Below, in pieces: positions 1,479 to 38,545 of a stretch of DNA of 38,545 nucleotides (position 1 is the stretch's first letter; every line of letters starts with the position of its first letter). The DNA comes from a virus. The notes under the pieces were generated by a model that did not search any database, was not told the origin of the DNA, and saw only the letters and a list, made by a program, of their open reading frames with translations. The stretch lies in IMG/VR virus record IMGVR_UViG_3300017733_000014, positions 1-38,545 of that record; one strand, written 5' to 3'. A program made the translations under genes and the position numbers.

Positions 1479-1793
1479 ATGAAAATAAAATTAAAAAACT
1501 TGATATCAGAGGCTACTTTAGATGATCTAGTAAAAACTCCAGCTGGTAGCGAAGCCGGCGGCGATGATGGTGCAACTGATGCTGGATCAGAAGATCCAAA
1601 AGATGTGCAAAAATTGACAGATAAATTCATGAATAACCAATCAATAAAATTAGCTATCAAGAGAATTAATATGAAAACAGAAGTTGCACCTGCAATTATT
1701 GCATTTGCAAATCTTCTTAATCAGCAAGTGCCAGGTTCGTTAACATCTGCCAGACGTCAACAAATCATAAAGGCACTTAGAGACTTATCATAA
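1479..1793 (+). CDS. Putative capsid-packaged internal protein (tag MKIKLKNLISEA)
   Basis: 104 residues. The first 12 (M-K-I-K-L-K-N-L-I-S-E-A) match the tag shared by the following genes and end in hydrophobic-x-Glu-Ala, the cleavage pattern of T4-type prohead protease gp21 (Leu/Ile-x-Glu before Ala/Gly/Ser). Next comes a low-complexity acidic Gly/Asp/Ala stretch (about 20-43) and a helical C-terminal domain with Lys and Arg. It is the first gene after the late promoter at 1453. In T4, internal proteins are loaded by such a targeting peptide, which is then removed; that this protein is packaged is inference from the tag. The mature domain is not recognised. Confidence 0.6.
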   Translation: MKIKLKNLISEATLDDLVKTPAGSEAGGDDGATDAGSEDPKDVQKLTDKFMNNQSIKLAIKRINMKTEVAPAIIAFANLLNQQVPGSLTSARRQQIIKALRDLS

Positions 1794-1805
1794 AGGAGAA
1801 TTGAA

Positions 1806-2420
1806 ATGAATAAATTTGTAAGTACAAATGGTAGATTCAATCATGGAAGATGGTTGAAAGAGTTTAAAGGAGGTAATATAACTGAAGGAACTAAGGCATA
1901 TGAACTAGGAGATATGTGGTCAAATGATTTTGATTATATTGGTATGTTGAAATATGGTGCAGAAAGAGGTTTCTATGAATTAGGATTAGATGCTTTACAA
2001 AAATTATTCAATTCATTTGAAGATGTTAACTACCATAGAGAATCACAAGACTTAGGTAATGCAATTGATTGGATGGAAGATCCAGGTAAAGATGCAAATC
2101 AAGCAGGAGAAAGGATAGAAGATTTTCTAGCTAGATTTAGAAAGAAATGTGCATCTACATTAGATGTGATGGGAGTTAAATGGCAACCAAATCCATCAAT
2201 AGAAAGAAGCATGAGAGAAGCTATTAATGAAGTTGATTATTCAACAATGAGACTTAAATCTAACATTGACCAGAAATGGGATAGTACAGATACAATGCTA
2301 GATGATATGAGACAATTCATTGGAGCATCGGTTGCAGCAAGTGGACCTGATATGGGTAAAGAGTTAGCATCTGCATTAAAATTGTTAATGAACTTTGCCG
2401 AAGGCGAGTCTAGAGGATAG
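1806..2420 (+). CDS. Uncharacterised protein, possibly virion-associated
   Basis: 204 residues with an AAAGGAG site at 1793-1799. The N-terminal region contains F-K-G-G-N-I-T-E-G, which has the I-x-E-G form of a prohead-protease site at about residue 26, although the start lacks the M-I-K-L-K tag. The rest is acidic and helical, with several Met-Asp-Asp repeats and many aromatic residues. It lies between two tagged genes in the same operon with 2-12 base gaps, so a late, head-related role is plausible. I do not recognise the family. Confidence 0.5.
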   Translation: MNKFVSTNGRFNHGRWLKEFKGGNITEGTKAYELGDMWSNDFDYIGMLKYGAERGFYELGLDALQKLFNSFEDVNYHRESQDLGNAIDWMEDPGKDANQAGERIEDFLARFRKKCASTLDVMGVKWQPNPSIERSMREAINEVDYSTMRLKSNIDQKWDSTDTMLDDMRQFIGASVAASGPDMGKELASALKLLMNFAEGESRG

Positions 2421-2422
2421 AT

Positions 2423-2647
2423 ATGAGTATGTTCAATATATTTAAAAACGATAATGAATGGAATGAAAAGAATGTAGTAGGATTTATTGCATTCGTAGTA
2501 ATGGTACTATTTGCCTTGTTAGACTTATTTACAGGGTATTTGGGAAAGGATTTAGTAATCAATGAAACAATATATGACTCATTCACACTTGTAGTGTTAG
2601 GATGCTTCGGTATTGCCGGATTAGAAAAATTTGCAGGGAAGAAATAA
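2423..2647 (+). CDS. Two-helix membrane protein, holin-like in shape
   Basis: 74 residues. The N terminus is charged (F-K-N-D-N-E-W-N-E-K-N) and is followed by two hydrophobic helices at about 18-40 (V-V-G-F-I-A-F-V-V-M-V-L-F-A-L-L) and 50-68 (F-T-L-V-V-L-G-C-F-G-I-A-G-L), ending in K-K. The size and topology fit a class II holin, and a TAATG overlap couples it to the next gene. It is not beside the lytic transglycosylase (6286), so holin is only one option. Confidence 0.5.
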   Translation: MSMFNIFKNDNEWNEKNVVGFIAFVVMVLFALLDLFTGYLGKDLVINETIYDSFTLVVLGCFGIAGLEKFAGKK

Positions 2648-3273
2648 TGAAACTAAAGTCACTATTCAAAGAAGAATTAAATTTATCAAGTGTTAAAACA
2701 CAATTATTAGCACTTAGTAAAAAATATCCAGGTGAAGGTAAATTAACTGAAGCTTTCAAGAAAGGTGATAAAGTAAAATATCTAGGACATCCAGCTGTTA
2801 TAACACATGTTGAAGATAAAATGGGTAAAACTTATTATAGTGTATCATATAATAAAGGCACAGGTAAGACTAAAGCACGTATGATATTATCAACTGATGG
2901 ATCTATTACTGAAGCTTCCGAAACAACAATACATATAAACAAAACTTTAGGATTAGAAATAGTTGAATCCGCAAAACCTGTAGTGTTTCAGGAAGCAGAA
3001 TATCAAGGAAAGAAAGTGAAGTTAGGTAAAGTTAAGAGAGGTGGGTCTAGGAAGTTCTATGTATATGTTAACAATCCAAAGACAGGAAATGTTAAAAAGG
3101 TTTCATTTGGAGATAATACAGGTTTAAGTATTAAAACAAAAGATCCAAAGAAAAGAAAATCTTTCAAAGCAAGACACAAATGCGATCAAAAGAAAGATAG
3201 AACATCTGCAGGATATTGGTCATGTAGAATGTGGTCAGGACCAGATGCAGTTAAAAATATGTTGAAAAAATGA
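2647..3273 (+). CDS. Putative packaged protein with several prohead-protease-like sites and an SH3/KOW-like segment
   Basis: 208 residues. ATG 2647 overlaps the upstream stop (TAATG); an in-frame ATG at 2602 inside the upstream gene is rejected. The start M-K-L-K-S-L-F-K-E-E-L is a variant of the neighbouring tag. Three more hydrophobic-x-Glu-Ala sites occur: L-T-E-A (33-36), I-T-E-A (87-90) and F-Q-E-A (114-117), as expected of a core protein processed into pieces. Residues 38-82 (G-D-K-V-K-Y-L-G-H-P-A) look like a small KOW/SH3 barrel. A basic Cys-containing tail (170-198, A-R-H-K-C-D-Q-K-K-D then G-Y-W-S-C-R-M-W) resembles a motif I recall from marine T4-like phage virion proteins. Function in the head is inference. 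Confidence 0.55.
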   Translation: MKLKSLFKEELNLSSVKTQLLALSKKYPGEGKLTEAFKKGDKVKYLGHPAVITHVEDKMGKTYYSVSYNKGTGKTKARMILSTDGSITEASETTIHINKTLGLEIVESAKPVVFQEAEYQGKKVKLGKVKRGGSRKFYVYVNNPKTGNVKKVSFGDNTGLSIKTKDPKKRKSFKARHKCDQKKDRTSAGYWSCRMWSGPDAVKNMLKK

Positions 3274-3299
3274 TAAAACTAAAAGACATATTATTCGAA
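3270..3299 (+). repeat. Tag-coding repeat, copy 1
   Basis: About 30 bases beginning ATGATAAAACTAAAAGACAT code the tag M-I-K-L-K-D-I-L-F-E. It is about 25/30 identical to the copy at 3806. Similarity to the other copies stops where the bodies begin. Confidence 0.7.
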
Positions 3300-3809
3300 G
3301 TTAAAAAACTTGAAACAAAGATATTTGATCAAGGTGCATTACAAGACTCAATGAAACAAATAAGAAAGCTGGTTGGTATTGAAGAAGCAGATGAAAAATT
3401 TCCATCTAATAAAAAAGTTACATATGAAGAATTCAGATTTGCAAATGGCACAGGAGGATTCTCTTTCAGATGGACACATGGAGTAAAATGGGGTGGACGT
3501 TTATCATTATCTATTAAGGGAGATGGTTCACATGAAATAGAAACTCTTTCTAGGTATGGAGATAAAGAGTTTAGCCAAACAGTTAAGAATCAAAATTATC
3601 TAAGAGACCTCAAAACATGGAGAGATCTAACTAACTTGAATCAGCAGACAATTATTAGTAGTGCTATGGCATCAATCAAAAAGTTTGAAAGACAAGCAGA
3701 ACAAGCTTTTGAAAAGGATAGAGATGCTCAAGCAGCTTATTATGGAGCAAAAGCTGATACAGGAAGGATAGGATATGGCTTATCATCACAACCAAGGAGA
3801 AGACAATGA
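3270..3809 (+). CDS. Putative packaged protein (tag MIKLKDILFEV)
   Basis: 179 residues. The start overlaps the previous stop in ATGATAAAA. The first 10 residues match the tag family, but position 11 is Val rather than Ala/Gly/Ser, so cleavage there may be weak or absent. The body holds a strand-rich part with F-R-F-A-N-G-T-G-G-F-S-F-R-W (about 56-69), then helices, and ends in a basic P-R-R-R-Q. No family recognised. The gene belongs to a run of four starts that are almost identical at DNA level. Confidence 0.55.
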   Translation: MIKLKDILFEVKKLETKIFDQGALQDSMKQIRKLVGIEEADEKFPSNKKVTYEEFRFANGTGGFSFRWTHGVKWGGRLSLSIKGDGSHEIETLSRYGDKEFSQTVKNQNYLRDLKTWRDLTNLNQQTIISSAMASIKKFERQAEQAFEKDRDAQAAYYGAKADTGRIGYGLSSQPRRRQ

Positions 3810-3835
3810 TAAAACTAAAAAATATATTAAATGAA
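3806..3835 (+). repeat. Tag-coding repeat, copy 2
   Basis: Begins ATGATAAAACTAAAAAATAT and codes M-I-K-L-K-N-I-L-N-E. It is 28/30 identical to the copy at 4114. Its first bases ATGA include the stop codon of the upstream gene. Confidence 0.75.
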
Positions 3836-4117
3836 GCAAAAGGTAAATACATGATAGGCCTTAAAGTTGTATCTGCAGATAAGGCGTTATCATATATGTA
3901 TTCAAATCCTAGCAAACCTTTAGGCAAAGGCAGTGATGGTGGACCTCCTAAATGGTATATGACAAATTCAGTCCCAGAGACAGATAGAAGAACTAAATGG
4001 GATACAATAGAAGCTGATATGCCAGCATTAGAAAAAAAATATGGCAAAGGAAATGTAGTAGTAGCCGGCAATACAGGTGGTGGTGATCCAGTAGTACAAG
4101 TATATATGAAATCATGA
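3806..4117 (+). CDS. Putative packaged protein (tag MIKLKNILNEA)
   Basis: 103 residues. This has the best form of the tag, M-I-K-L-K-N-I-L-N-E followed by Ala, which matches the T4 gp21 cleavage rule, leaving a mature protein of about 93 residues. The mature part contains a Gly/Pro-rich loop (G-K-G-S-D-G-G-P-P-K-W) and a Gly-rich C-terminal strand region (V-V-V-A-G-N-T-G-G-G-D-P-V-V-Q-V). The start is ATGA-coupled to the gene before and the stop to the gene after. No family recognised; delivery with the DNA into the host is the inferred role. Confidence 0.6.
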   Translation: MIKLKNILNEAKGKYMIGLKVVSADKALSYMYSNPSKPLGKGSDGGPPKWYMTNSVPETDRRTKWDTIEADMPALEKKYGKGNVVVAGNTGGGDPVVQVYMKS

Positions 4118-4143
4118 TAAAATTAAAAAACATATTAAATGAA
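4114..4143 (+). repeat. Tag-coding repeat, copy 3
   Basis: Begins ATGATAAAATTAAAAAACAT, 28/30 identical to copy 2. It carries the upstream stop inside ATGA. Confidence 0.75.
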
Positions 4144-4425
4144 GATATACCAGAATTTTCTACTAAAGCAGAATCAATAGAATATGAAATGGAAAAAATT
4201 CAAAAAGGTGTTAGAATATCAGAAAGAGAGCCTGGTAAATTTAGAGCACGATGGTCATATGTAAGACAACCATTATCATCTGCAGATTGGAGAGCATCAC
4301 TTAAACTAGTTATGGATGCAGGAGGAAAGATTGATAAAGAATGGACTAGGAATGATTATGAAGCAAATTATGAAAGAGAAGAGCCGCCAGAATGGGTTCC
4401 TTCAATATACTTCTCATTAAGGTAA
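4114..4425 (+). CDS. Putative packaged protein (tag MIKLKNILNED)
   Basis: 103 residues. The first 10 are identical to the previous gene, then the sequences share nothing. Residue 11 is Asp, so cleavage by a gp21-like enzyme would be off-consensus. The mature part is charged, with many Trp and Arg residues (F-R-A-R-W-S-Y-V-R-Q, D-W-R-A-S-L-K), suggesting a small mixed alpha/beta fold. Coupled by ATGA to the upstream gene. No family recognised. Confidence 0.58.
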   Translation: MIKLKNILNEDIPEFSTKAESIEYEMEKIQKGVRISEREPGKFRARWSYVRQPLSSADWRASLKLVMDAGGKIDKEWTRNDYEANYEREEPPEWVPSIYFSLR

Positions 4426-4428
4426 GAT

Positions 4429-4458
4429 ATGATAAAACTAAAAAACATATTAACAGAA
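4429..4458 (+). repeat. Tag-coding repeat, copy 4
   Basis: Begins ATGATAAAACTAAAAAACAT, 27/30 identical to copy 3. Here the upstream gene stops a few bases earlier, so there is no overlap. Confidence 0.75.
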
Positions 4459-4917
4459 TCACCAGAAGACCAAATCAAACAATGTCCTACTGCAACACAG
4501 AAGCTTAAAGTAAACACTGCAAATAGAGATAGAGCAATTCAAGCCGATTTCATTAAGTATGGACCTCTCAACGTTGAACAGCCAGGTGACTATTGGAAAG
4601 AGATAGCAAAGAAATGGAATACAACAGAAGAAGCAGCAATGAAATCCAAATGTATGTCATGTACAGCTTTTGATGTATCGCCAAGAATGTTAGAATGTAT
4701 ACCAGGAGAAACATCTGAGCCAGTTAGAGATGAATTTGGTATATTAGGTTATTGTTGGATGCATCATTTCAAATGTCATTCTGCAAGATCATGCAACACA
4801 TGGGCAGCTGGAGGTCCTATCAAAGAAGATGAAAAGTCATTCGAATGGCAAAAAAGAAATCTTAAATTAGCATTAGACCCAGATCCAATTGATCCAACAA
4901 TGTATAAAGATGAGTAA
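4429..4917 (+). CDS. Putative packaged Cys/His-rich protein (tag MIKLKNILTES)
   Basis: 162 residues. The tag ends I-L-T-E before Ser, which fits the gp21 rule. The middle holds a dense set of Cys and His: C-M-S-C-T-A-F-D (about 75-82), M-L-E-C, G-Y-C-W-M-H-H-F-K-C-H-S-A-R-S-C-N-T-W (about 108-126). This looks like a metal-binding or disulfide module; I recall similar Cys-rich proteins in marine T4-like phages but assign no function. It runs directly into the DUF5872-like gene. Confidence 0.55.
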   Translation: MIKLKNILTESPEDQIKQCPTATQKLKVNTANRDRAIQADFIKYGPLNVEQPGDYWKEIAKKWNTTEEAAMKSKCMSCTAFDVSPRMLECIPGETSEPVRDEFGILGYCWMHHFKCHSARSCNTWAAGGPIKEDEKSFEWQKRNLKLALDPDPIDPTMYKDE

Positions 4918-4918
4918 T

Positions 4919-5515
4919 ATGTTAAATCTTAAAGATATATTAGAAGGTACAAGATGTTGGAAAGGATATGAAAAGAAAGGCACTAAAAAGCTTTTTGGTA
5001 AAACAGTTCCTAATTGTGTTAAGAAGGAAAGCAAATTACCAGATGATGATATTGCAGAAGATTTAAGAAAATGGGTAAAACAAAAGTGGGTTGATATATC
5101 TAGAAAAAAGAAAGGCGGCGGACATCCTGCATGTGGAGCTTCAGCAGGTAAGAAATCTAGAAAAGGTGGTAAGAGAGCTTATCCAAAATGTGTTCCTGCT
5201 AGTAAGGCAGCCGGCATGAGTAAGAAAGATAAATCATCAGCTACCAGAAGAAAAAGAGCAGTATACAAAAATAAAGCTAAAGGTGGCAAGCCGCCTAAAA
5301 AAGCAAAAAATGTTTCAACAAAAGCAGAATCTATATTAAGAGAAAAATTCATTCAGCGTTTAGAACAAATGAATGAAAAGGCAAAACGAGATAAATGTTA
5401 CTACAAAGTTAAATCTCGATATGATGTTTGGCCATCTGCATATGGATCATTATCATTATCCAAATGTAGAAAAGTTGGCGCTGCCAATTGGGGCAACAAA
5501 TCTAAAAAGAAATAA
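4919..5515 (+). CDS. Highly basic DUF5872-like protein, putative packaged DNA-binding protein
   Basis: 198 residues. ATG 4919 starts right after the upstream stop (4915-4917), giving M-L-N-L-K-D-I-L-E-G, a tag variant with the permitted I-L-E before Gly. Three modules follow: a Cys module (10-35, G-T-R-C-W-K-G-Y to V-P-N-C-V-K-K); a DUF5872-like module (about 45-125) with W-V-D-I-S-R-K-K-K-G-G-G and R-A-Y-P-K-C-V-P; and a C-terminal module (159-186, C-Y-Y-K-V-K-S-R-Y then W-P-S-A-Y). These modules recur in marine phage and giant-virus proteins. Lys and Arg make up roughly a third of the chain, so DNA condensation in the head is a reasonable inference. It is the last gene of the late operon. 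Confidence 0.6.
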   Translation: MLNLKDILEGTRCWKGYEKKGTKKLFGKTVPNCVKKESKLPDDDIAEDLRKWVKQKWVDISRKKKGGGHPACGASAGKKSRKGGKRAYPKCVPASKAAGMSKKDKSSATRRKRAVYKNKAKGGKPPKKAKNVSTKAESILREKFIQRLEQMNEKAKRDKCYYKVKSRYDVWPSAYGSLSLSKCRKVGAANWGNKSKKK

Positions 5516-5993: not shown

Positions 5994-6284
5994 ATGGAGA
6001 CATCAGGATCGAGTACACCATTACGTCGAAAGCGTAGGAAACGATTAGAACTTTACTTATTAGATGATAACTATAATACATTTAATTACGTAATAGAAAT
6101 TCTATCAGCATACCTACCATTATGTAATTCATTGCAGGCAGAACAAATGGCAATCATTACAAATGGAACTGGCCAATGTCGTATATATTCAGGGTTTGCT
6201 CCTGAGATATATACTTTATATGCATATCTACAAAAAAATGGATTAGATGTTCAAATAAGAGAATATAAACCAAAATCAAAATAA
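5994..6284 (+). CDS. ClpS-like adaptor protein
   Basis: 96 residues. After a basic N-terminal tail (R-R-K-R-R-K-R, 11-17) the chain follows ClpS: a strand and degron-pocket loop L-Y-L-L-D-D-N-Y-N-T-F (20-30), helix N-Y-V-I-E-I-L (31-37), Q-A-E-Q-M-A-I-I (48-55), a turn G-T-G-Q-C (58-62), S-G (66-67) and L-Q-K-N-G-L-D-V-Q-I (79-88). This resembles the Bacteroidota ClpS form (NDDVNTF..FVIE, QAEQ, GKC, SG). ClpS hands N-degron proteins to ClpA/ClpC-ClpP. Two pocket positions differ: the second conserved Asp appears as N26, and the conserved His after helix 2 appears as N57. The substrate range may therefore be changed, or the adaptor may block host ClpS. The phage also encodes ClpP (34059). Confidence 0.72.
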   Translation: METSGSSTPLRRKRRKRLELYLLDDNYNTFNYVIEILSAYLPLCNSLQAEQMAIITNGTGQCRIYSGFAPEIYTLYAYLQKNGLDVQIREYKPKSK

Positions 6285-7317: not shown

Positions 7318-7826
7318 AAAAAGTATTATTAGCAGTACTAGTCTCGCTTGGACTACAAACACAGGCACAACAGATAGCACCATATTTTTGCTGTGATTCA
7401 ATAACATATTGGACAGACCAGTCTCAAGGATTTAACGTAGGACTTGATACATCAAATATAATTCATAATCCAGATTCAATGGATGTATATTGGGCAGTAT
7501 GTACTAATGGTATGTGCTATTCAGGAAACGGTATGTATGCTTTCTTTGGACAAATTATGACAACAGATACAGTTAAAGTTTGTTATGATGTTATACTTTA
7601 TGAAGCAAATACAATGGAAACATGTACTAGGTGTGATAGTTTAATATTTGACCAAAATACCTTTTCATGGGTATTATTTAGTATGGGTAATACAACATCT
7701 ATAAATGAACTAACATTTAATAGAGTTAACGATGGTAAAATTTATGACTTACTAGGTAGAGAATTAACAAAAGCACCTATAGGCAAGTTATATATTAGAA
7801 ATGGACAATTATATATTGCTAAGTAG
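7314..7826 (+). CDS. Secreted protein with type IX secretion sorting tail
   Basis: 170 residues. The signal peptide is clear (M-K-K-V-L-L-A-V-L-V-S-L-G-L-Q-T-Q-A-Q, cut near residue 19). The mature part has many Cys (C-C-D-S, C-T-N-G-M-C-Y, T-C-T-R-C) and strand-rich spacing. The last 30 residues contain K-I-Y-D-L-L-G-R-E-L, then G-K-L-Y-I and a final Lys, the pattern of Bacteroidota Por/T9SS type A sorting domains. In that system the tail directs export through the outer membrane and surface attachment or release. A phage gene with this tail implies use of the host T9SS during infection, or recent capture of a host gene. Confidence 0.65.
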   Translation: MKKVLLAVLVSLGLQTQAQQIAPYFCCDSITYWTDQSQGFNVGLDTSNIIHNPDSMDVYWAVCTNGMCYSGNGMYAFFGQIMTTDTVKVCYDVILYEANTMETCTRCDSLIFDQNTFSWVLFSMGNTTSINELTFNRVNDGKIYDLLGRELTKAPIGKLYIRNGQLYIAK

Positions 7827-7838
7827 TATATTTATTAA
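7827..7838 (+). promoter_or_regulatory. Late-type box upstream of the tmRNA gene
   Basis: TATATTTATTAA resembles the late box (YATATTTATATWAAA) and overlaps the region just after the upstream stop at 7826. It would place the tmRNA under phage late control; a transcript starting here would begin close to the acceptor piece. Confidence 0.35.
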
Positions 7839-8060
7839 TGATCGTTAGTAGTTATATTAGCTGCTTGTATGGACGAGGGTTCGATACCCTCCACCTCCAC
7901 TAAAACAATTACAATATGGGGGTGACTGGATTTGACAGCAAGATAAGGGTATAATGAAGATCACGCATTAACTGGCGAACAAGTTGAAATGGCGATGGCT
8001 GCTTAATTAAGCACCCTAGCAAACGGAGGAAGTCCGTAGAAACTTCGGAGGTGGGGGAAT
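7838..8060 (+). ncRNA. ssrA: Circularly permuted (two-piece) tmRNA
   Basis: The 3' half precedes the 5' half. Acceptor piece: T-stem GAGGG 7875-7879, T-loop TTCGATA 7880-7886, CCCTC 7887-7891, acceptor strand CACCTCC 7892-7898, discriminator A 7899; CCA is not encoded. After an 18-base intervening segment comes the coding piece: acceptor strand GGGGGTG 7918-7924, which pairs over 7 bp with 7892-7898 and keeps the G3-U70 wobble of alanine tRNA and tmRNA, then the tmRNA-specific CTGGATTTGAC at 7926-7936. GCAAG 7938-7942 pairs with CTTGT 7864-7868 and TATAA 7950-7954 with TTATA 7852-7856, forming the long H2 helix. A tag frame GCA 7965 to TAA 8004-8006 reads ALTGEQVEMAMAA. Its stop lies in hairpin TGCTTAATTAAGCA (7999-8012). 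A pseudoknot follows: 8023-8027 with 8033-8037 and loop GAAG 8029-8032 with CTTC 8043-8046. The resume codon and outer ends are approximate. Confidence 0.9.
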
Positions 8061-8078
8061 TATTAAAAAGGAAGAGTT

Positions 8079-8378
8079 ATGACGAAAAAAGATCATGTAG
8101 CAAATATTATGGATAAATGGTATAAAGCTATGCAAAAAGAAAATGTTGGAGTTCAGCCAAAAGCATCTACAATTTTAGGGACAATTTTAGCTGATTACAA
8201 AATTGAACTAAAATCAGATGTACGAGATATTTGGGCTGAAGCAATGACAATAAGAGGAGGAGAGTTTCCAGCTTGGTATGCAAGTTTATCTAAATTAGAA
8301 AAACTTCAATATGAGGAAGGCAGGAAAAGAGCTTCTGAAATGCATGACCCTAGAGAAAGAACATTATTAAAAGGGTAA
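8079..8378 (+). CDS. Hypothetical helical protein
   Basis: 99 residues with a GGAAGAG site at 8070-8076, directly downstream of the tmRNA. The protein is basic at the N terminus and helical, with W-Y-K-A-M, I-W-A-E-A-M and P-A-W-Y-A-S-L-S segments, ending D-P-R-E-R-T-L-L-K-G. No family recognised. It may be on the same transcript as the tmRNA. Confidence 0.5.
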   Translation: MTKKDHVANIMDKWYKAMQKENVGVQPKASTILGTILADYKIELKSDVRDIWAEAMTIRGGEFPAWYASLSKLEKLQYEEGRKRASEMHDPRERTLLKG

Positions 8379-9751: not shown

Positions 9752-10924
9752 ATGAAGAAAAAATTCGAGTATTTAAGAGTAGTTCAAGAGAATGGAAAAT
9801 ATTGCTTATTTGACTCCTCCGGGAAAAAGCAAAATGAAATCTATGTAAGAGATATTATGTGTGAGAAGGCATTGTTGAATGGACAATGTATTCAATATGA
9901 TATAGAGACAGGTAGATCAATGAGAAAGCCAATGGAAATGTTCAGTGATATGCAACCAAAAGAAGTAGAAGTAGAAGCATCTAATAAGATAGAAGCAGAT
10001 CCAGTATTGAATTTTATTCATAATGAATCAGTAGACCTTCGTCCAAAGACATTGGTAATGCCTGATCTGAAATGGAAGTATTTAGTTCGATCTGCAATGA
10101 GAGGTAAAAATATTATGATGACCGGAGCAGCAGGTTGTGGTAAAACAATGGCCGCTAAGAGATTAGTAGAGGCATTAGATAGACCAGAGTTCTATTTCAA
10201 TTTAGGTGCCACTCAAGATCCAAGAGGGACATTGATTGGTAATACCCATTTTAAGAAAGAAGAAGGTACGACCTTTGCTGAGTCAATGTTTGTGAAAGCA
10301 ATTCAAACTAAAGATGCCATCATATTGTTAGATGAGATATCAAGAGCACATCCAGAAGCTTGGAATATATTAATGACGGTATTAGATCAAGGACAAAGAT
10401 ATTTGAGATTAGATGAACATGAAGATGCTCCAACCATTAAAGTAGCAGAAGGAGTTACATTTGTAGCCACTGCAAATATTGGTAATGAATATACCGCAAC
10501 CAGAGCAATGGATAGAGCATTAGTAGATAGATTCATTATTGTTGAAATGGATACATTGAACAAAGAACAAGAGTCAGGATTGTTGAAAGACCTTCATCCA
10601 GGTATTACGCAAGAGCAAGCAGATAATGTTGCTGAAATTGCTTCAATGACAAGAAAAGAAATAAAAGGAGATGCTCCTAGAATATCAAATGCAATTAGTA
10701 CGAGGATAAGTGTTGAGATTGCAGGATTGATGGAAGATGGATTTACATTAGCTGAATCAGCAGAAGTTTGTATTTATCCTTTCTTTGATGAAGATGGAGG
10801 AGTTGATTCAGAAAGAACATTTATGAAGCAAGTAGTTCAAAAGTATTGTGGTAGTACAGAGAATGAAGATATCTTTAATGCAGAAGGAGTTGATGAAGAT
10901 AAAGAGTATGCAACAACTAACTAA
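9752..10924 (+). CDS. MoxR/CobS-like AAA+ ATPase
   Basis: 390 residues. Walker A is G-A-A-G-C-G-K-T (125-132) and Walker B I-L-L-D-E (191-195), followed by a sensor-1 type A-T-A-N and an arginine-finger region (A-L-V-D-R-F). The N-terminal 90 residues look like a substrate or DNA-binding extension. MoxR-type ATPases work with VWA proteins to remodel or activate targets; in phages they are usually annotated as CobS-like. The matching metallopeptidase-VWA protein lies downstream (11522), separated by a strong hairpin region and a GIY-YIG-like gene. Both flanking genes have their own host-type promoters, which suggests early expression. Confidence 0.8.
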   Translation: MKKKFEYLRVVQENGKYCLFDSSGKKQNEIYVRDIMCEKALLNGQCIQYDIETGRSMRKPMEMFSDMQPKEVEVEASNKIEADPVLNFIHNESVDLRPKTLVMPDLKWKYLVRSAMRGKNIMMTGAAGCGKTMAAKRLVEALDRPEFYFNLGATQDPRGTLIGNTHFKKEEGTTFAESMFVKAIQTKDAIILLDEISRAHPEAWNILMTVLDQGQRYLRLDEHEDAPTIKVAEGVTFVATANIGNEYTATRAMDRALVDRFIIVEMDTLNKEQESGLLKDLHPGITQEQADNVAEIASMTRKEIKGDAPRISNAISTRISVEIAGLMEDGFTLAESAEVCIYPFFDEDGGVDSERTFMKQVVQKYCGSTENEDIFNAEGVDEDKEYATTN

Positions 10925-11521: not shown

Positions 11522-13609
11522 ATGAAAAAATCCGTAGGTTCAAGTTCAAGTTTTTGGTTAGATAATGATTTCTTTGATGATGATTATGATGTATTTGGAG
11601 AAGAATTAGAGACAAAGCCGAAGGGTAAAGACCCAATCAAATTAGCAGGTTATAGAAGAGCAATAGGAAACTTTGTTAGAATTGTTACAGGTGAATCTAT
11701 TCCAGTAAGATTTAATACTAGTGGTGATAGTTATACCGATGGTAAGACAGTTACCATTTCAGCCTCATTGAAGGATAAAGATTTTGATCCAGCCGTTGGA
11801 TTAGCATTACATGAAGGATCGCATATTAAATTGACCGACTTCAGTACATTAAGAGACCTTGAAGATTGGGTTAAGAATTATGATTCATATATGATATCAT
11901 TAGCTGAGAAGCATGGTGCAAAAGATAGTTCATTAGATAATTTTGATAGATGGTGGTCATCAGAATATGTATTGCCTAAGTTAAGTAATCTTATCAATAT
12001 TATAGAAGATAGAAGAATTGATGCTTGGGTATATAAAAATGCACCAGGATACAAAGGATATTATCAAGCATTGTATGAAAAATATTTTAATGCAAAGATT
12101 ATTGATAAAGGTCTTAAGAGTGATGAATATACAGATCCAAATTGGGATTCATTCTTATTTAGAATTTGCAATCTTACTAATCCAAATCGTAGATTAGATG
12201 TCTTAGGAATGAAAGAAATTTGGAATTTGATTGATCTTAAAAATATTGCAAGATTAAAGAACACCAATGAAGTTAGAGATTTAGCATTTAAGGTATTTCA
12301 ATTTTGTGAAGATCAGATTCCATCATTAGAATTGGATAAGAAAGATGATTGTGATAACAATTATGAAAATGGAGAAGGACAATCTAATGAATGTAATGGT
12401 GAAGGTAATGGTGAACCAAATACACCAGAAGGAGATGCTCCTGCTGATGATGGTTCAAAGGCTGAAGGTGGAGATGTTAAGATAGGAGATGGAGGAAATT
12501 TAGGAGGCAATCAAAAGCCAATTGGAGAAGATGAATTAAGTGATAGACAAAAAGATCAACTTAAGAAAGCAATTAAGAAGCAAAATGATTTCCAAGACCA
12601 GAAAACAAAGAAGACAAATATAAGTAAAAAGGTTCAGAAACAAATGGTAGCTATGGAGAATAGTGGAATCACTTATAAAGATGTTGAATATGACTCAGAG
12701 ACATATATGGGTAAAATAAAAAAGAAAGCAGAAGTTCTTGTAATAAATAATTTTACAAAAGATTTGATTAACAATGTTGATTGTGGAATGTGGGATATGC
12801 CGTTATATGAATGGAGAATTAGTAGTCGTCAAGGTTGGGTATCAGAAGGAATAAGAAGAGGAGTTGTTCTTGGTAAGAAATTGAAAGTGAGAGCAGAAGA
12901 AAGAAGTACTAAGTTCAATAGATTAAGATCTGGTAAGATAGATAAAAGAATGATTGCTAATGCTGGATATGGAGCAGAAGGAATATTTGAAAAGATTGAA
13001 TCATTTGCTTACAATCCAGGTATCATTCATATATCAATTGACAATAGTGGTTCAATGAGTGGTATGAGATTCCAAAATGCAGTTACAACCGCAGTAGCAG
13101 TTGCAAAGGCTTGTGATATGATTGAGAATATGGAATGTGTTATTAGTTTTAGAGCCGGTAGTTATTTCATTAATGAAAGAGATCATAAAGCAGTTATGTT
13201 GATTGCATATGATTCAAGAAAGCATGGAATGAGTCAAATTAAAACAATGATGCCATATGTATGTGTTAGTGGATCAACTCCAGAGGGTCTTTGTTTTGAT
13301 GCAATCATGAAACAAATTATAGATTCAAGTAGAGGTAAAGATTCTTATTTTGTTAATATGAGTGATGGAGCTCCTTATTATGATGGATATTGTGGAGAGG
13401 CAGCTTGGGCACATACGAGAGAGCAAGTTAAGAAAATGAAAAGAGAAGGCATCAAAGTTATATCTTATTTCATTACAGGATCATATAGTTACAGTGGAGA
13501 AAATGATGCATTCAAGGTAATGTATGGTAAAGAAGCACAATTTATTGATGTTAATAAGATCAATAATGTAGCAAAGTCAATGAATAATAAATTTTTAGAA
13601 ATAGTTTAA
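11522..13609 (+). CDS. Metallopeptidase-like plus VWA protein (CobT-like partner of MoxR)
   Basis: 695 residues. Residues 95-101 hold L-A-L-H-E-G-S-H, an HExxH zinc motif (H97, E98, H101), with a possible third ligand E163 in N-I-I-E-D-R-R-I-D. This matches the putative metallopeptidase domain often fused to VWA domains. An acidic low-complexity linker rich in Gly, Asn and Asp (about 275-345) follows. The C-terminal VWA domain has a full MIDAS D-N-S-G-S (508-512) with later S-G-S-T-P and S-D-G-A elements. With the MoxR-like ATPase it should form a chaperone/protease-type pair; phage copies are often called CobT by similarity to cobaltochelatase, but no cobalamin role is implied. It has its own host-type promoter. 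Confidence 0.78.
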   Translation: MKKSVGSSSSFWLDNDFFDDDYDVFGEELETKPKGKDPIKLAGYRRAIGNFVRIVTGESIPVRFNTSGDSYTDGKTVTISASLKDKDFDPAVGLALHEGSHIKLTDFSTLRDLEDWVKNYDSYMISLAEKHGAKDSSLDNFDRWWSSEYVLPKLSNLINIIEDRRIDAWVYKNAPGYKGYYQALYEKYFNAKIIDKGLKSDEYTDPNWDSFLFRICNLTNPNRRLDVLGMKEIWNLIDLKNIARLKNTNEVRDLAFKVFQFCEDQIPSLELDKKDDCDNNYENGEGQSNECNGEGNGEPNTPEGDAPADDGSKAEGGDVKIGDGGNLGGNQKPIGEDELSDRQKDQLKKAIKKQNDFQDQKTKKTNISKKVQKQMVAMENSGITYKDVEYDSETYMGKIKKKAEVLVINNFTKDLINNVDCGMWDMPLYEWRISSRQGWVSEGIRRGVVLGKKLKVRAEERSTKFNRLRSGKIDKRMIANAGYGAEGIFEKIESFAYNPGIIHISIDNSGSMSGMRFQNAVTTAVAVAKACDMIENMECVISFRAGSYFINERDHKAVMLIAYDSRKHGMSQIKTMMPYVCVSGSTPEGLCFDAIMKQIIDSSRGKDSYFVNMSDGAPYYDGYCGEAAWAHTREQVKKMKREGIKVISYFITGSYSYSGENDAFKVMYGKEAQFIDVNKINNVAKSMNNKFLEIV

Positions 13610-19264: not shown

Positions 19265-20266
19265 ATGAAAAAGTCAGATATAACAAGAATCATTAAAGAA
19301 GAGGTAATTAATATACTTCGTGATTCTAATATTAATGAAGCATTTGGAGATCCACTTGCTGCTAAACTATCCAAGCTTGGAGGAATGAAATCTACTAGAT
19401 GGCAGAACTTCTGGAGATCATCAGCTAAGACATATGATATAGCATGGGATAAGTTACCAAAAGGAAGTATACGTAAAGTTCAACCAACTTCACCAGATGT
19501 TAAAAAAGGTATGGCATTTTATGTGATCAACCAAGATGTACCTAATCCATTTGCTAGTTCTAGAGGATGGGCATATGATAATAATTTAAGAGGTCCTGCA
19601 GTATTAGCTGTTACAGTTGATAATAAGATTCAGTACTATGGAGCAGATAGAAGAGGAGAAGGAAGAGGTATTGGTCCTAAAATAAGTGGAAGATATTCCA
19701 AACAAGGAGCAGCAGTTGGTAAAGGTTCATATGGAACTTTGATGGTTAAGAAACTTAAACAACTTGCTGATGATGTTTATATATTTGATTTAGAATCTTA
19801 CAGAGGAGGAACATCTGCATTGAAAGCTAAGAGAGCTGAATTGAAGTTAGGTAAAGATACTTTTAAAGATGCTAAGGCTTGGAAGCAAGCAAACCTAAAT
19901 AGATATAGAGATATATTAAATGCAAGAGTAGGTACAAGAGACCAGATAGATGCAATGGTTGCTAAAATAGTTAAAATGTCGAATGAAGTAGTTGCAGATG
20001 CAATGGCATTGCCTAAGTTAGGCCGATATAATGATATAGTAGCAACCGTTAACGGCAATGAAGTAGAATTAAAAAATGTTACAGGTGCAATGACTAAGGC
20101 CTTACGTTATTATGGTGAATATATCCAAATGCAAAATGAAATGGAGAGAGATGGAGATAATTCATATAGTAAAACATATAATGAAGATAGAATGAAATCA
20201 AAGGCAGGTGATATTAAAGCTATATTAAATAAAATGAAGTCCGGTAAATTGGATGGTTGGTATTAA
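19265..20266 (+). CDS. Putative virion protein with helix-E N-terminal tag
   Basis: 333 residues. The N terminus is a long amphipathic helix (I-T-R-I-I-K-E-E-V-I-N-I-L) ending in I-N-E-A (about 23-26), which fits the prohead-protease rule. This longer tag form also appears at 23976 and 38168. The body is basic, with R-W-Q-N-F-W-R-S-S-A-K and G-R-Y-S-K-Q-G-A-A-V-G-K-G-S. No enzyme motif recognised. It has a late-type box and an AGGAG site, and its stop overlaps the start of the next gene. Confidence 0.5.
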   Translation: MKKSDITRIIKEEVINILRDSNINEAFGDPLAAKLSKLGGMKSTRWQNFWRSSAKTYDIAWDKLPKGSIRKVQPTSPDVKKGMAFYVINQDVPNPFASSRGWAYDNNLRGPAVLAVTVDNKIQYYGADRRGEGRGIGPKISGRYSKQGAAVGKGSYGTLMVKKLKQLADDVYIFDLESYRGGTSALKAKRAELKLGKDTFKDAKAWKQANLNRYRDILNARVGTRDQIDAMVAKIVKMSNEVVADAMALPKLGRYNDIVATVNGNEVELKNVTGAMTKALRYYGEYIQMQNEMERDGDNSYSKTYNEDRMKSKAGDIKAILNKMKSGKLDGWY

Positions 20267-21915
20267 TGCCAGCTAAAAGCAAACAACAACAAAAGTTCTT
20301 CGGTGTAGTTAAAGCTATGCAGAAAGGTGATATACCTAAAAAGGGTGAAGCCGGAGAGGTAGCAAAAGATATGAAGAAAAAAGAGGTAGATAAAATGGCA
20401 TCAACAAAACACAAAGGTCTTCCAAAAAAGATCAAAGAGATGATTGGTAAGACGATTGTAAAGGAACTTCAATTAAATGAAGTACAGCCATTTGCAGATA
20501 ATCAATTAAGAAAGAAATGGAGTTATCCATTAGGTAATAAAGATGGATTAGTTTATCTTGCAACCAATGATAAAAGATATCCTACAGAACTTGTTGTATA
20601 TAATATCAAAAGAGATATGTTCCATTTCATGCATAGCCAAATGGGTAAATGGAGCAATCCAACTCAAGAGAATGTTCCGGCTGATAAATTATCTAGTACA
20701 CATTGGGTGCAAGACTATTTTGAAGAATGGAAAGAAGACTTTGATTATGAAAAAGGCTTTAAAGAAAACAAAACAGTATATGGTCTTGAAGATCCTAATG
20801 CAAAGGTAGTAAATGATTTAACAGAAGCAAGTGCAAATGTATTAAGATCTAAGTATGAAAAGGCTATTAAAAAAGAACAAGCACTTTCATCTCTTTTATT
20901 AGTTAATTTAGAAAAATATAAAGCAGCTAAAGCTAAAGGTGATGAAAAGGCAATTGCAAAGCATACAAAGATTGCAGGTGATATAGGAAAAAAGAAAGCA
21001 AAAGCAACTGCTGATGCATCTGCTGCATATGCTGCATATGAAAATAAAATTAGTGGTCTTCATTCTGATGCAGAACTTGAACTTAAAGAAGTAGATGCAA
21101 AAGATAATACAGAGTTTACCGTAACCTTAAAACATCTACTTAAGAAACATGTTTCTAAAGGTGGTGAGATTGATGAAATGCAAATGGTTAATAAGAAGAC
21201 CGGTGAAGATGTTACAAGACATATGATAGCTTATTTGGAAAAGAAAATTACCAAAAAGGAATTTGAAGAGTTAACTGGGTTAAGTAAAGAAAAACTTAAG
21301 GTATCTGAATCAATCAATGAAGCTGATTTTAGACCAGGAGATAGATTTGGTGGACGAGATGGTGATAAGGATTATAAATATAAGAAGTACGCTTCTAAGT
21401 CATTTGAAAGGATAAATGATGCGATGTTCGAATTCAGACATTCAATGGGAATAAAAACATTGACCAACAAGGACATGAAGCTAAAGAAAAAGGTTGAGGC
21501 ATTGCACCAAGCTATATTTGATTTACAGAAAGAAATGAAAAGGGATGGTTTAACAGAAGGTAAATTAAATGAAATGGATATTAATGATCCTATATTAGTT
21601 GCTATTAGAGCTAGAAAGACTGATTTGAAAAAGAAAGCAGCTTTACCAAAAGTTAAAAAAATAAGTACCAAGCAATATTATAAGTTAATGGACATGGAAA
21701 GTGATATTATTGATCAAATGAAAGATGCTGCTAAAGAATATCAAACATTAGATTCTGAGATGAATCAAGATGCAGGCCAGAAAGGTAGTAACTGGACTGA
21801 TGCAGATGCCAATAGATATGGTGGTGATTTAAATAAATTGCAAACAAGAATTGAAAAATTAGCTAAACAAAAAGCTAAGGTTAAAAAAGCTATAATGAAT
21901 TATAGAATAAACTAA
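20266..21915 (+). CDS. DUF3008-like multi-segment protein, putative virion component
   Basis: 549 residues. ATG 20266 overlaps the upstream stop (TAATG); an in-frame TTG at 20257 is rejected. Residues 1-50 match the DUF3008 pattern (P-A-K-S-K-Q-Q-Q-K-F-F then a second half with M-A-S-T-K-H-K-G-L-P). Residues 52-70 form a helix-E segment (I-K-E-M-I-G-K-T-I-V-K-E-L then L-N-E). Further hydrophobic-x-Glu sites occur at L-T-E-A, I-N-E-A and L-T-E-G, so it may be cut into several packaged peptides. The middle is a Lys/Ala-rich coiled coil. Function not known; a head-associated or scaffold-like role is inference. Confidence 0.5.
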   Translation: MPAKSKQQQKFFGVVKAMQKGDIPKKGEAGEVAKDMKKKEVDKMASTKHKGLPKKIKEMIGKTIVKELQLNEVQPFADNQLRKKWSYPLGNKDGLVYLATNDKRYPTELVVYNIKRDMFHFMHSQMGKWSNPTQENVPADKLSSTHWVQDYFEEWKEDFDYEKGFKENKTVYGLEDPNAKVVNDLTEASANVLRSKYEKAIKKEQALSSLLLVNLEKYKAAKAKGDEKAIAKHTKIAGDIGKKKAKATADASAAYAAYENKISGLHSDAELELKEVDAKDNTEFTVTLKHLLKKHVSKGGEIDEMQMVNKKTGEDVTRHMIAYLEKKITKKEFEELTGLSKEKLKVSESINEADFRPGDRFGGRDGDKDYKYKKYASKSFERINDAMFEFRHSMGIKTLTNKDMKLKKKVEALHQAIFDLQKEMKRDGLTEGKLNEMDINDPILVAIRARKTDLKKKAALPKVKKISTKQYYKLMDMESDIIDQMKDAAKEYQTLDSEMNQDAGQKGSNWTDADANRYGGDLNKLQTRIEKLAKQKAKVKKAIMNYRIN

Positions 21916-23975: not shown

Positions 23976-24368
23976 ATGTCAGATTTGAAAAATAAAATAT
24001 ATACAATTATAAAGGAAGAAATTAGATCAGTTCTTTCTGAACGTTCTTATCGTTATGGAGGTTTATTGGACCCGGATAAGTTTGATCCAGTTGATCCAGA
24101 GATTCATATTAGAGGATTTGGCACAATGAGCAGATCATCATTAAGAACAGAAATAGCAACAAGATTAGAAGGAGCACTAAAGACAGCAAAAGATGCATCT
24201 ATAGGTGGTCCTAATTCGTATGATAAATACAAGTCACTCGAAGGAGTTTTAGAGGATAAAGGCGTCCTAATGCTTCAGATTAAAGCTGAGCAAGAAATAG
24301 CCGAACAATTAGAAAGTTTACGTAAGAAGGGAGGCCGAAGAGCCCAACCAATCCCAAAACAATTTTAA
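23976..24368 (+). CDS. Putative virion protein with helix-E N-terminal tag
   Basis: 130 residues. N-terminal helix K-I-Y-T-I-I-K-E-E-I-R-S-V-L-S-E (about 7-22) matches the longer tag form seen at 19265 and 38168; residue 23 is Arg, so cleavage after L-S-E would be off-consensus. Body: F-D-P-V-D-P-E-I-H-I-R-G-F-G, helices and a basic end (K-K-G-G-R-R-A-Q-P). No family recognised. Confidence 0.48.
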   Translation: MSDLKNKIYTIIKEEIRSVLSERSYRYGGLLDPDKFDPVDPEIHIRGFGTMSRSSLRTEIATRLEGALKTAKDASIGGPNSYDKYKSLEGVLEDKGVLMLQIKAEQEIAEQLESLRKKGGRRAQPIPKQF

Positions 24369-28799: not shown

Positions 28800-29213
28800 A
28801 TGACACAATTAACACCATTCGGCACATCGCCATTCGACATCCTATTTAAGGATTTTTTCAAAGCAGACGTAGATTATCAGTTTGCAGATACAACTAAACT
28901 CAATCATCCAGTAGATATATATGAAGCCAAAGATGGGCTAAATATTGATATTGCATGTGTAGGTCTTACAAAAAAAGATATCGATCTCAATATTGAAGGA
29001 GATATACTTCGAGTAGAATACAAAAAAGAAGCTGGCCATAGCGGGGCAGAATATATTCAAAGAAATATTGCTAAACGAGCATTTAACTTTGGATGGAGAA
29101 TTAGCAGAAGATTTGACTTAGGCAAATTGGAAGCTAAATTAGAAAACGGTTTGTTACATCTCTATGCGCCAATAGCAGATGAAGCAAAACCAAAAGCAGT
29201 TACAATCAAGTAA
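28800..29213 (+). CDS. Hsp20-family small heat shock protein
   Basis: 137 residues with AAGGAG at 28786-28791. The alpha-crystallin domain is clear: P-V-D-I-Y-E-A-K-D-G-L-N-I-D-I-A, G-L-T-K-K-D-I-D-L-N-I-E-G-D-I-L-R-V, F-N-F-G-W-R-I-S-R-R-F-D-L (equivalent of the F-x-R-x-F-x-L-P strand) and A-K-L-E-N-G-L-L-H-L. Small Hsps hold unfolding proteins. Phage copies are known from marine T4-like phages, where they are thought to help structural protein folding. It fits the wider protein-quality-control set here. Confidence 0.88.
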   Translation: MTQLTPFGTSPFDILFKDFFKADVDYQFADTTKLNHPVDIYEAKDGLNIDIACVGLTKKDIDLNIEGDILRVEYKKEAGHSGAEYIQRNIAKRAFNFGWRISRRFDLGKLEAKLENGLLHLYAPIADEAKPKAVTIK

Positions 29214-34058: not shown

Positions 34059-34667
34059 ATGAGTATATATGAAGAAGAACAGAAGAAAGAACCTTTAAAG
34101 ATAGACACTAAAAATAGTGAACTATATGAAGCGTTAAATAATCAATTAATGACATTAGTTGATTTTAAAGATTCGATAATATTTCTTAACGATGAAATAA
34201 ACCAACATACATTAACAGATTTAATAATCCGTACAAGAAATCTATTACAAAATAGAAAAGATAAAACAGCCCCAATTAATTTAATGATTAATTCGCCTGG
34301 CGGAGATGTACATGAAATGTTTGCTATAATAGATTATATGGAATCATTAGATGTTAAAGTAAATACTATTTGCAGAGGTAAAGCGTTTTCAGCAGCTGCT
34401 GTTATTTTAACATGTGGTACTGGTACAAGAATGATGAGTAAACGATCGACGATGATGTTCCATCAATCATCTAGTTTTCTTGGAGGTAAAATGTCTGATA
34501 TAACAGCATATTTAGATAATGTTAAAAATTTAGAAAAACATGTATATTCTTTATTAGCTGAACGTACAAATAAAGATGCAGAATATTGGAAAGAACATAT
34601 GAGATCAGATATGTTTTTAACAGCAGAAGAAGCAAAACAATTAGGAATAATAGACCAAATAATATAA
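34059..34667 (+). CDS. clpP: ClpP-family serine protease
   Basis: 202 residues, the normal ClpP length. The full triad is present: Ser111 in G-K-A-F-S-A-A-A, His135 in M-M-F-H-Q-S-S, Asp184 in M-R-S-D-M-F-L-T-A-E-E-A. The oxyanion strand is N-S-P-G-G-D-V. It should form the barrel peptidase used with ClpX, ClpA or ClpC. T4-like phages of marine hosts sometimes carry ClpP, and in other phages ClpP acts as a prohead protease. Here two roles are open: maturing the tagged packaged proteins, or degrading host or tmRNA-tagged proteins with a host unfoldase. No phage Clp ATPase is seen in the window. Confidence 0.88.
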   Translation: MSIYEEEQKKEPLKIDTKNSELYEALNNQLMTLVDFKDSIIFLNDEINQHTLTDLIIRTRNLLQNRKDKTAPINLMINSPGGDVHEMFAIIDYMESLDVKVNTICRGKAFSAAAVILTCGTGTRMMSKRSTMMFHQSSSFLGGKMSDITAYLDNVKNLEKHVYSLLAERTNKDAEYWKEHMRSDMFLTAEEAKQLGIIDQII

Positions 34668-38167: not shown

Positions 38168-38545
38168 ATGGAATCAAAATCATTTGTAAAATTGCTTCGA
38201 AAGGTTATAAGAGAAGAAGTTCGTGCAGCAGTTCGTACAGAAATAAAATCAGTATTAAATGAAAATACAACAGTTACTAAACATGAATCTGATTTACAAA
38301 AAATTGTAGGCGATACAAAAAAATATAAACCAAAAGCAAAAAAGAAATTTACTAAAAATAGTATGCTAAATGATATACTAAACGAAACAGCAACATCAGC
38401 TGATTTTAGTACAATGAGAGATGGTCCAGCTGTAATGCAACAAGAGTATCCTAGTATGGGTAATTATAAAGCAGAGATGGCAGAATCATTTGGCATGCAA
38501 AGAGAACCTGCTCCATTAGCAACCACCGGCATTAACGGTGAACCA
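38168..38545 (+). CDS. Virion-type protein with helix-E N terminus (3' end outside window)
   Basis: The first 126 residues of an open frame that runs off the window. The N terminus is a long basic amphipathic helix (F-V-K-L-L-R-K-V-I-R-E-E-V-R, then I-K-S-V-L-N-E at about 26-32), the longer tag form also seen at 19265 and 23976. A second segment S-M-L-N-D-I-L-N-E-T-A (about 65-75) repeats the short tag theme. I recall such I-I-K/R-E-E helices at the start of many marine T4-like phage virion proteins. A late-type box precedes it. Confidence 0.5.
   Translation, partial: MESKSFVKLLRKVIREEVRAAVRTEIKSVLNENTTVTKHESDLQKIVGDTKKYKPKAKKKFTKNSMLNDILNETATSADFSTMRDGPAVMQQEYPSMGNYKAEMAESFGMQREPAPLATTGINGEP

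Follow-up and report, generated by a model that had tools for sequence, protein, structure and literature searches.

A short N-terminal leader on unrelated proteins of aquatic phages resembles the capsid targeting sequence of T4 internal proteins

In bacteriophage T4, the internal proteins IPI, IPII and IPIII carry a capsid targeting sequence (CTS), an N-terminal tag of about ten residues with hydrophobic positions 4, 7 and 8 and, in IPII and IPIII, Glu at position 10, which stands before unrelated bodies and goes together with a gp21-type protease. In the IPIII tag, residues 4 and 7 serve targeting and residues 8 and 10 processing, gp21 cutting after L/I-x-E, and according to a proposal in a review of T4, tags of this kind enable T4-like phages to load a variety of proteins (PMC9026906). 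The giant phage SPN3US also has a prohead protease that removes the propeptides of inner head proteins, and its paralogues gp53 and gp54 have identical first 15 residues, but the propeptides are mostly longer than 100 residues and there is no short interchangeable tag (PMC5694885). In phage P1, an N-terminal signal of DarB is sufficient to bring a reporter to the capsid and the cargo is defence-related (PMC9024508), although phage and head-assembly system are different ones and the signal is not described as a tag before many bodies. Here we analyzed a 38.5 kb virus record, IMGVR_UViG_3300017733_000014, which is a genome fragment and is hereafter called the window, in which seven genes start with variants of one leader peptide, M-(I)-K-L-K-(D/N)-I-L-x-E, and an earlier note on this DNA had proposed that this leader is a T4-type targeting and cleavage peptide. 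Neither the leader peptide itself nor the term capsid targeting sequence in combination with metagenomes was found in the literature searched, a scope outside which most subscription journals and preprints lay.

The seven N-terminal variants, which lie between positions 1479 and 5515, all belong to real open reading frames (ORFs) on the plus strand, as judged from their translations (Table 1). A relaxed expression for the leader matched seven ORFs of the window, whereas residue-shuffled sequences gave 0.15 matches on average and never more than 3; a strict one matched six, against 0 in 100 shuffles. When the seven bodies were compared among themselves no body matched another, in agreement with the claim that the proteins share nothing after the tag; a short N-terminal tag common to unrelated proteins of one phage is therefore confirmed for these seven genes. 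None of the bodies belonged to a Pfam family and their PHROG matches were only to families of unknown function; the 1479 protein, with an orphan body, had no family match in Pfam and PHROG profile searches and no relatives of the 3270 protein were found in viral contigs. The 2647 protein ends in a C-terminal module, phrog_7595, in which many other tagged proteins end too, and the 4919 body is very basic (net +42) and related to the cyanophage T4-GC0119 'structural protein'. The 4429 body family is labelled elsewhere as a high-potential iron-sulphur protein, adjoining a capsid maturation protease, and the structure model of the window protein (pLDDT 43.6) was too poor for use. Body homology to IPI-IPIII was not found, and on sequence grounds the window bodies are analogues of the T4 internal proteins, not homologues. 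Two predictions of the earlier note held in part. The cassette row does contain seven tagged genes, with ATGA stop-start overlaps at three of its junctions, but two genes inside it (1806-2420 and 2423-2647) lack the leader, and the suggested hydrophobic-x-Glu before Ala, Ser or Gly is an enrichment, not a rule, since one of these residues follows the Glu in four of the seven window tags (A, A, S, G) and in 28/77 family representatives compared with a background of about 19%.

The leader is not private to the window phage and is widespread in aquatic phages. When viral contigs were searched with a degenerate nucleotide pattern encoding the leader, at least 120 stretches matched, compared with none for a control in which the codons of the pattern were rearranged; across 257 Gb of bacterial and archaeal genome sequence the leader pattern gave 21 stretches. 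Among the matches listed, 195 leader ORFs fell into at least 98 unrelated body families, as expected if related phages carry the same leader before differing bodies. Conservation in an alignment of 83 representatives was limited to the first ten residues, and a logo of 77 representatives, whose positions are partly fixed by the search pattern, displayed hydrophobic residues at 4, 7 and 8, Glu at 10 and the L/I-x-E end. Additionally, a whole-genome scan by the first five residues only found Glu at the expected place in 22/39 cases.

The consensus MIKLKDILxE, hydrophobic at 4, 7 and 8 and with Glu at 10, has the same register as the tags of T4 IPII and IPIII (MKTYQEFIAE/A, the slash marking the end of the tag) and as the propeptide of gp24 (MAKINELLRE/S), which is of similar length (PMC5694885) and resembles it residue by residue. 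This match of register and cleavage motif argues for the proposed T4-type peptide, with the difference that gp24 is a shell protein whereas the leader proteins would be cargo. T4 Alt (MELITELFDE) was also considered because its tag shape fits, but according to the review its propeptide has only 7 residues (PMC9026906), and it was not used as a register match. Unlike the T4 internal proteins, which have another tag sequence and three bodies, the leader precedes about 100 families and occurs widely in aquatic phages, some of them relatives of a Flavobacterium phage, and its packaging and cleavage are putative.

According to this reading, phages with the leader should also encode a prohead protease. 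A gp21-type protease (Peptidase_S77, PF03420) was present in 37/85 leader records, taken from the matches listed, and in 3/40 control records chosen by an unrelated pattern (Fisher p = 3e-5); for records of 10-100 kb the counts were 27/75 and 0/20 (p = 6e-4). All ten leader records above 100 kb had gp21, although this comparison alone is weak, as large controls often have it too (3/5). In several relatives leader genes adjoin gp21, within the part of the head cluster that holds the core genes 67/68 in T4, and some tagged genes are placed between gp21 and the scaffold gene. Furthermore, in four large phages with the leader, and in relatives, the major capsid proteins kept [LIV]xE at the alignment position where T4 gp23 is cleaved, so that the same protease specificity is seen on the capsid protein, and several of them start tag-like themselves, e.g. 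MDLKNILNEG in locus L052.

Two relatives connect the window to this head module. G056, a close relative of 173 kb that encodes gp21, has 27 genes in common with the window, in conserved blocks, and the cultured Flavobacterium phage immuto has ten, together with portal, protease, scaffold-like and capsid genes; through them gene content and order are those of phages with a T4 head module (gp20-21-22-23). On the left side of the ClpS-like gene (5994) lies a slot, which in both the window and G056 begins with a thioredoxin-like gene. The window, G056 and G016 all have a member of the 4429 family in this slot, and the tagged gene sets otherwise differ among the three, as would be expected of interchangeable cargo.

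A second tag, M(D/E)NF(D/N)L(K/R)KYLxE, was found in viral contigs on at least 88 body families among the matches listed (loci L287-L365 and further loci), and all six second-tag records above 100 kb that were tested had gp21. The bodies of six second-tag proteins are related to MIKLK-tagged ones. Phage immuto has this second tag on four genes, and several of its genes bear the tag MENFDLKKFLVE; a virion proteome of immuto was sought in the literature and none was found. Exchange also involves genes of the window, because the 4429 body family occurs behind several differing tags in other phages and is 63% identical to a protein of L018 with the quite different tag MDNFNLRKYLAE, which is of the second type. 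In the 4919 family the window tag ends ILE/GTRCWKG and that of the G056 homologue reads MIKLKDILLSE/GTRCWKG. Similarly, six alignable tags of a P-loop kinase family, which includes a protein of the cultured Pelagibacter phage HTVC008M, differ in length and sequence, and all six have [L/I]xE as their end at one alignment column, followed by Gly or Ser. This conserved Glu column gives indirect support to a removal of the tag in mature virions. The window itself has three candidate second-type tags (Table 1), and the body of the one at 23976 has a weak relative (23% identity) in L066 that bears the tag MIKLKELINE.

Pfam searches on the 83 representatives recognised lysozymes, an M23 peptidase, a cell-wall hydrolase, an ATP-grasp ligase, NUDIX, an exonuclease, a zeta toxin and a 2'-5' RNA ligase. 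In L115 the tagged protein belongs to the 2H phosphoesterases (PF13563, E = 1.3e-7) and weakly matches the anti-CBASS protein Acb1 (E = 2.7e-4, below the curated cut-off); from this one match and from analogy an anti-defence role of the cargo may be inferred, and the bodies of the window itself gave no such match. One tagged family has conserved YHFT, YYxS and EYEDR motifs, and its model (pLDDT 70) came closest to DarT and tRNA 2'-phosphotransferase, which both have an ADP-ribosyltransferase fold, in a weak match (E = 0.009); this YHxT family thus models as a DarT/Tpt1-like ADP-ribosyltransferase. T4 Alt is an injected ADP-ribosyltransferase. Tagged proteins with YHxT motifs are found at L018:5016-5903, L070:1981-2553, L060:482-904, L062:1187-1528 and L099:184-939. 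The idea that tagged proteins are polyproteins was discarded, as internal [LIVFM]xE[AGS] gp21 sites were not enriched (48 versus 46 expected).

All these data suggest that the leader is very probably a capsid targeting sequence of the T4 type that a gp21-type protease cuts, and that the protein following it is loaded in the head and likely ejected; the T4-type targeting interpretation is well supported by the comparisons at sequence level. The system is a much expanded variant of T4 capsid targeting with a different tag, not a new kind. The tag would probably form a short amphipathic helix, with its hydrophobic residues at 4, 7 and 8, that binds the scaffold core during prohead building, so that the attached protein is trapped in the head. 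The gp21-type serine protease would then cut after the Glu of [L/I]xE and free the mature protein, which may remain with the DNA and likely be ejected into the host at infection. If loading depends on the tag alone, every gene that starts with one could be plug-in cargo, and the window slot at 1.1-6.0 kb would hold differing cargo in differing relatives. We infer core binding, cleavage, presence in virions, injection and a function in the host.

Several observations weigh against this interpretation. The residue after the cleavage site (P1') is only mildly restricted, gp21 was not found in the 38.5 kb of the window, itself a fragment, and the frequent gp21 of large controls has been mentioned above. 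In contigs above 40 kb a leader gene lay within 1.5 kb of gp21 in 3/17 cases (0.76 expected), most leader genes being located elsewhere. The lysozymes, the M23 peptidase and tape-measure-like matches could function in the tail or at the cell wall instead of in the host cytoplasm. Lastly, the nucleotide conservation of codons 6-7 is not explained by peptide selection alone, nor by codon usage.

Among other explanations, the one that survives best, which we nevertheless consider unlikely, is that the tag sends scaffold or head-structure parts to the prohead for assembly, with little or no effector injection. The tagged genes between gp21 and the scaffold gene, where T4 has the core proteins 67/68, would fit this, as would the relation of the 4919 body to a cyanophage structural protein and the influence of T4 IPIII on head morphogenesis (PMC9026906). 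However, the bodies are hugely varied, including NUDIX, exonuclease, zeta-type kinase, 2H phosphoesterase, ADP-ribosyltransferase-like, ATP-grasp and lysozyme proteins, and the cargo of the same slot changes between relatives.

It is quite improbable that the leader is a nucleic-acid signal (a translation-initiation, RNA-binding or recombination site) with the peptide as a by-product, although the DNA of the leader does show unusual features. Codon 7 was ATA in 105/113 leaders (93%) compared with 44-49% in matched contexts, and codon 6 was GAC in 55/78 Asp cases (70%) compared with 22-34%, in both cases at any contig GC, whereas codon 2, also Ile, was split between ATA and ATT. Codons 5-7 (AAA-GAC-ATA; L004-L123) show strong synonymous-site conservation. 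In addition, 44/142 leader genes overlapped the upstream ORF through ATGA, an excess over 64/756 controls. Against such a signal, codons 2, 3, 4 and 8 vary synonymously while their residues are fixed, the x-Glu end is kept on bodies behind tags of quite different DNA, and no conserved sequence beyond A-richness was found upstream of leader genes. The codon bias points either to leader DNA that became common through recombination or to an added RNA- or DNA-level function. A T4 late-promoter-like motif, TATAAATA, was discarded as too common in the AT-rich window to carry meaning.

A tag for proteolysis or quality control by host or phage, e.g. Clp-dependent, is very improbable: the window does also have ClpS, ClpP and a permuted tmRNA, but the gene found to track the leader across phages is gp21, register and cleavage motif are as in T4 head proteins, and leaders occur on genes adjoining gp21. 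That the common N-termini are a mere product of recent tandem duplication or gene conversion, without function, is scarcely credible, because, even if several tagged genes are adjacent and overlapping, the tag is kept in many contigs before the unrelated families counted above, whose bodies share nothing, and two unrelated tags serve homologous bodies.

Other features of the window were also recorded. A permuted (two-piece) tmRNA gene lies at 7807-8097 on the plus strand (Rfam RF04321, 67.5 bits; ARAGORN tag GEQVEMAMAA) and, together with the ClpS adaptor (5994-6284), the ClpP protease (34059-34667) and an HSP20 chaperone (28800-29213), looks like a phage-borne protein quality-control set. The ClpP-like gene was rejected as a prohead protease since, although PHROGs calls it 'head maturation protease', it matches Pfam CLP_protease (E = 9e-41) and lies outside a head cluster. 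A MoxR/CobS-like AAA ATPase and a CobT/VWA-like protein are encoded side by side (9752-10924 and 11522-13609). The ORF at 20266-21915 starts with an N-terminal module, MPAxSKxQQKFxGxV (DUF3008), that occurs on varied bodies and often beside gp21 (L124, L138, L185), and is possibly another N-terminus common to head proteins.

Table 1. Leader-bearing genes of the window and candidates for second-type tags; a slash marks the end of the tag.
Feature	Position	Strand	Length (aa)	Tag	Remarks
Tagged gene 1	1479..1793	+	104	MKIKLKNLISE/A	Tag longer by one residue; an acidic linker precedes the body
Tagged gene 2	2647..3273	+	208	MKLKSLFKE/E	
Tagged gene 3	3270..3809	+	179	MIKLKDILFE/V	Orphan body; ATGA stop-start overlap with the 2647 gene
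Tagged gene 4	3806..4117	+	103	MIKLKNILNE/A	Orphan body; ATGA overlap
Tagged gene 5	4114..4425	+	103	MIKLKNILNE/D	Orphan body; ATGA overlap
Tagged gene 6	4429..4917	+	162	MIKLKNILTE/S	Cysteine-rich body
Tagged gene 7	4919..5515	+	198	MLNLKDILE/G	Alternative ATG at 4910 adds MSN
Candidate second-type tag	19265..20266	+	333	IIKEEVINILRD..INE	Membership uncertain; same tag style beside gp21 in relatives
Candidate second-type tag	23976..24368	+	130	IIKEEIRSVLSE	
Candidate second-type tag	38168..38545	+		LLRKVIREEVRAAVRTEIKSVLNE	Baseplate region; runs off the window

Phage-injected proteins have no sequence in common, which is why few of them are known. A short searchable tag allows genomes to be scanned, and each gene behind a tag becomes a candidate for a head-packaged, injected protein. 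To the proposal of the T4 review our analysis adds scale, two independent tags and concrete candidates. On balance we lean slightly towards the view that aquatic T4-like phages have a general address system for injected proteins, with at least two unrelated, interchangeable tags, each on some 90-100 body families, and cargo swapped in fixed slots. If this is true, phage-injected effectors could be predicted from the tags alone and would number hundreds of families, with ADP-ribosyltransferases and 2H phosphoesterases among them. Foreign proteins, too, could be packaged into phage heads by means of the tags.

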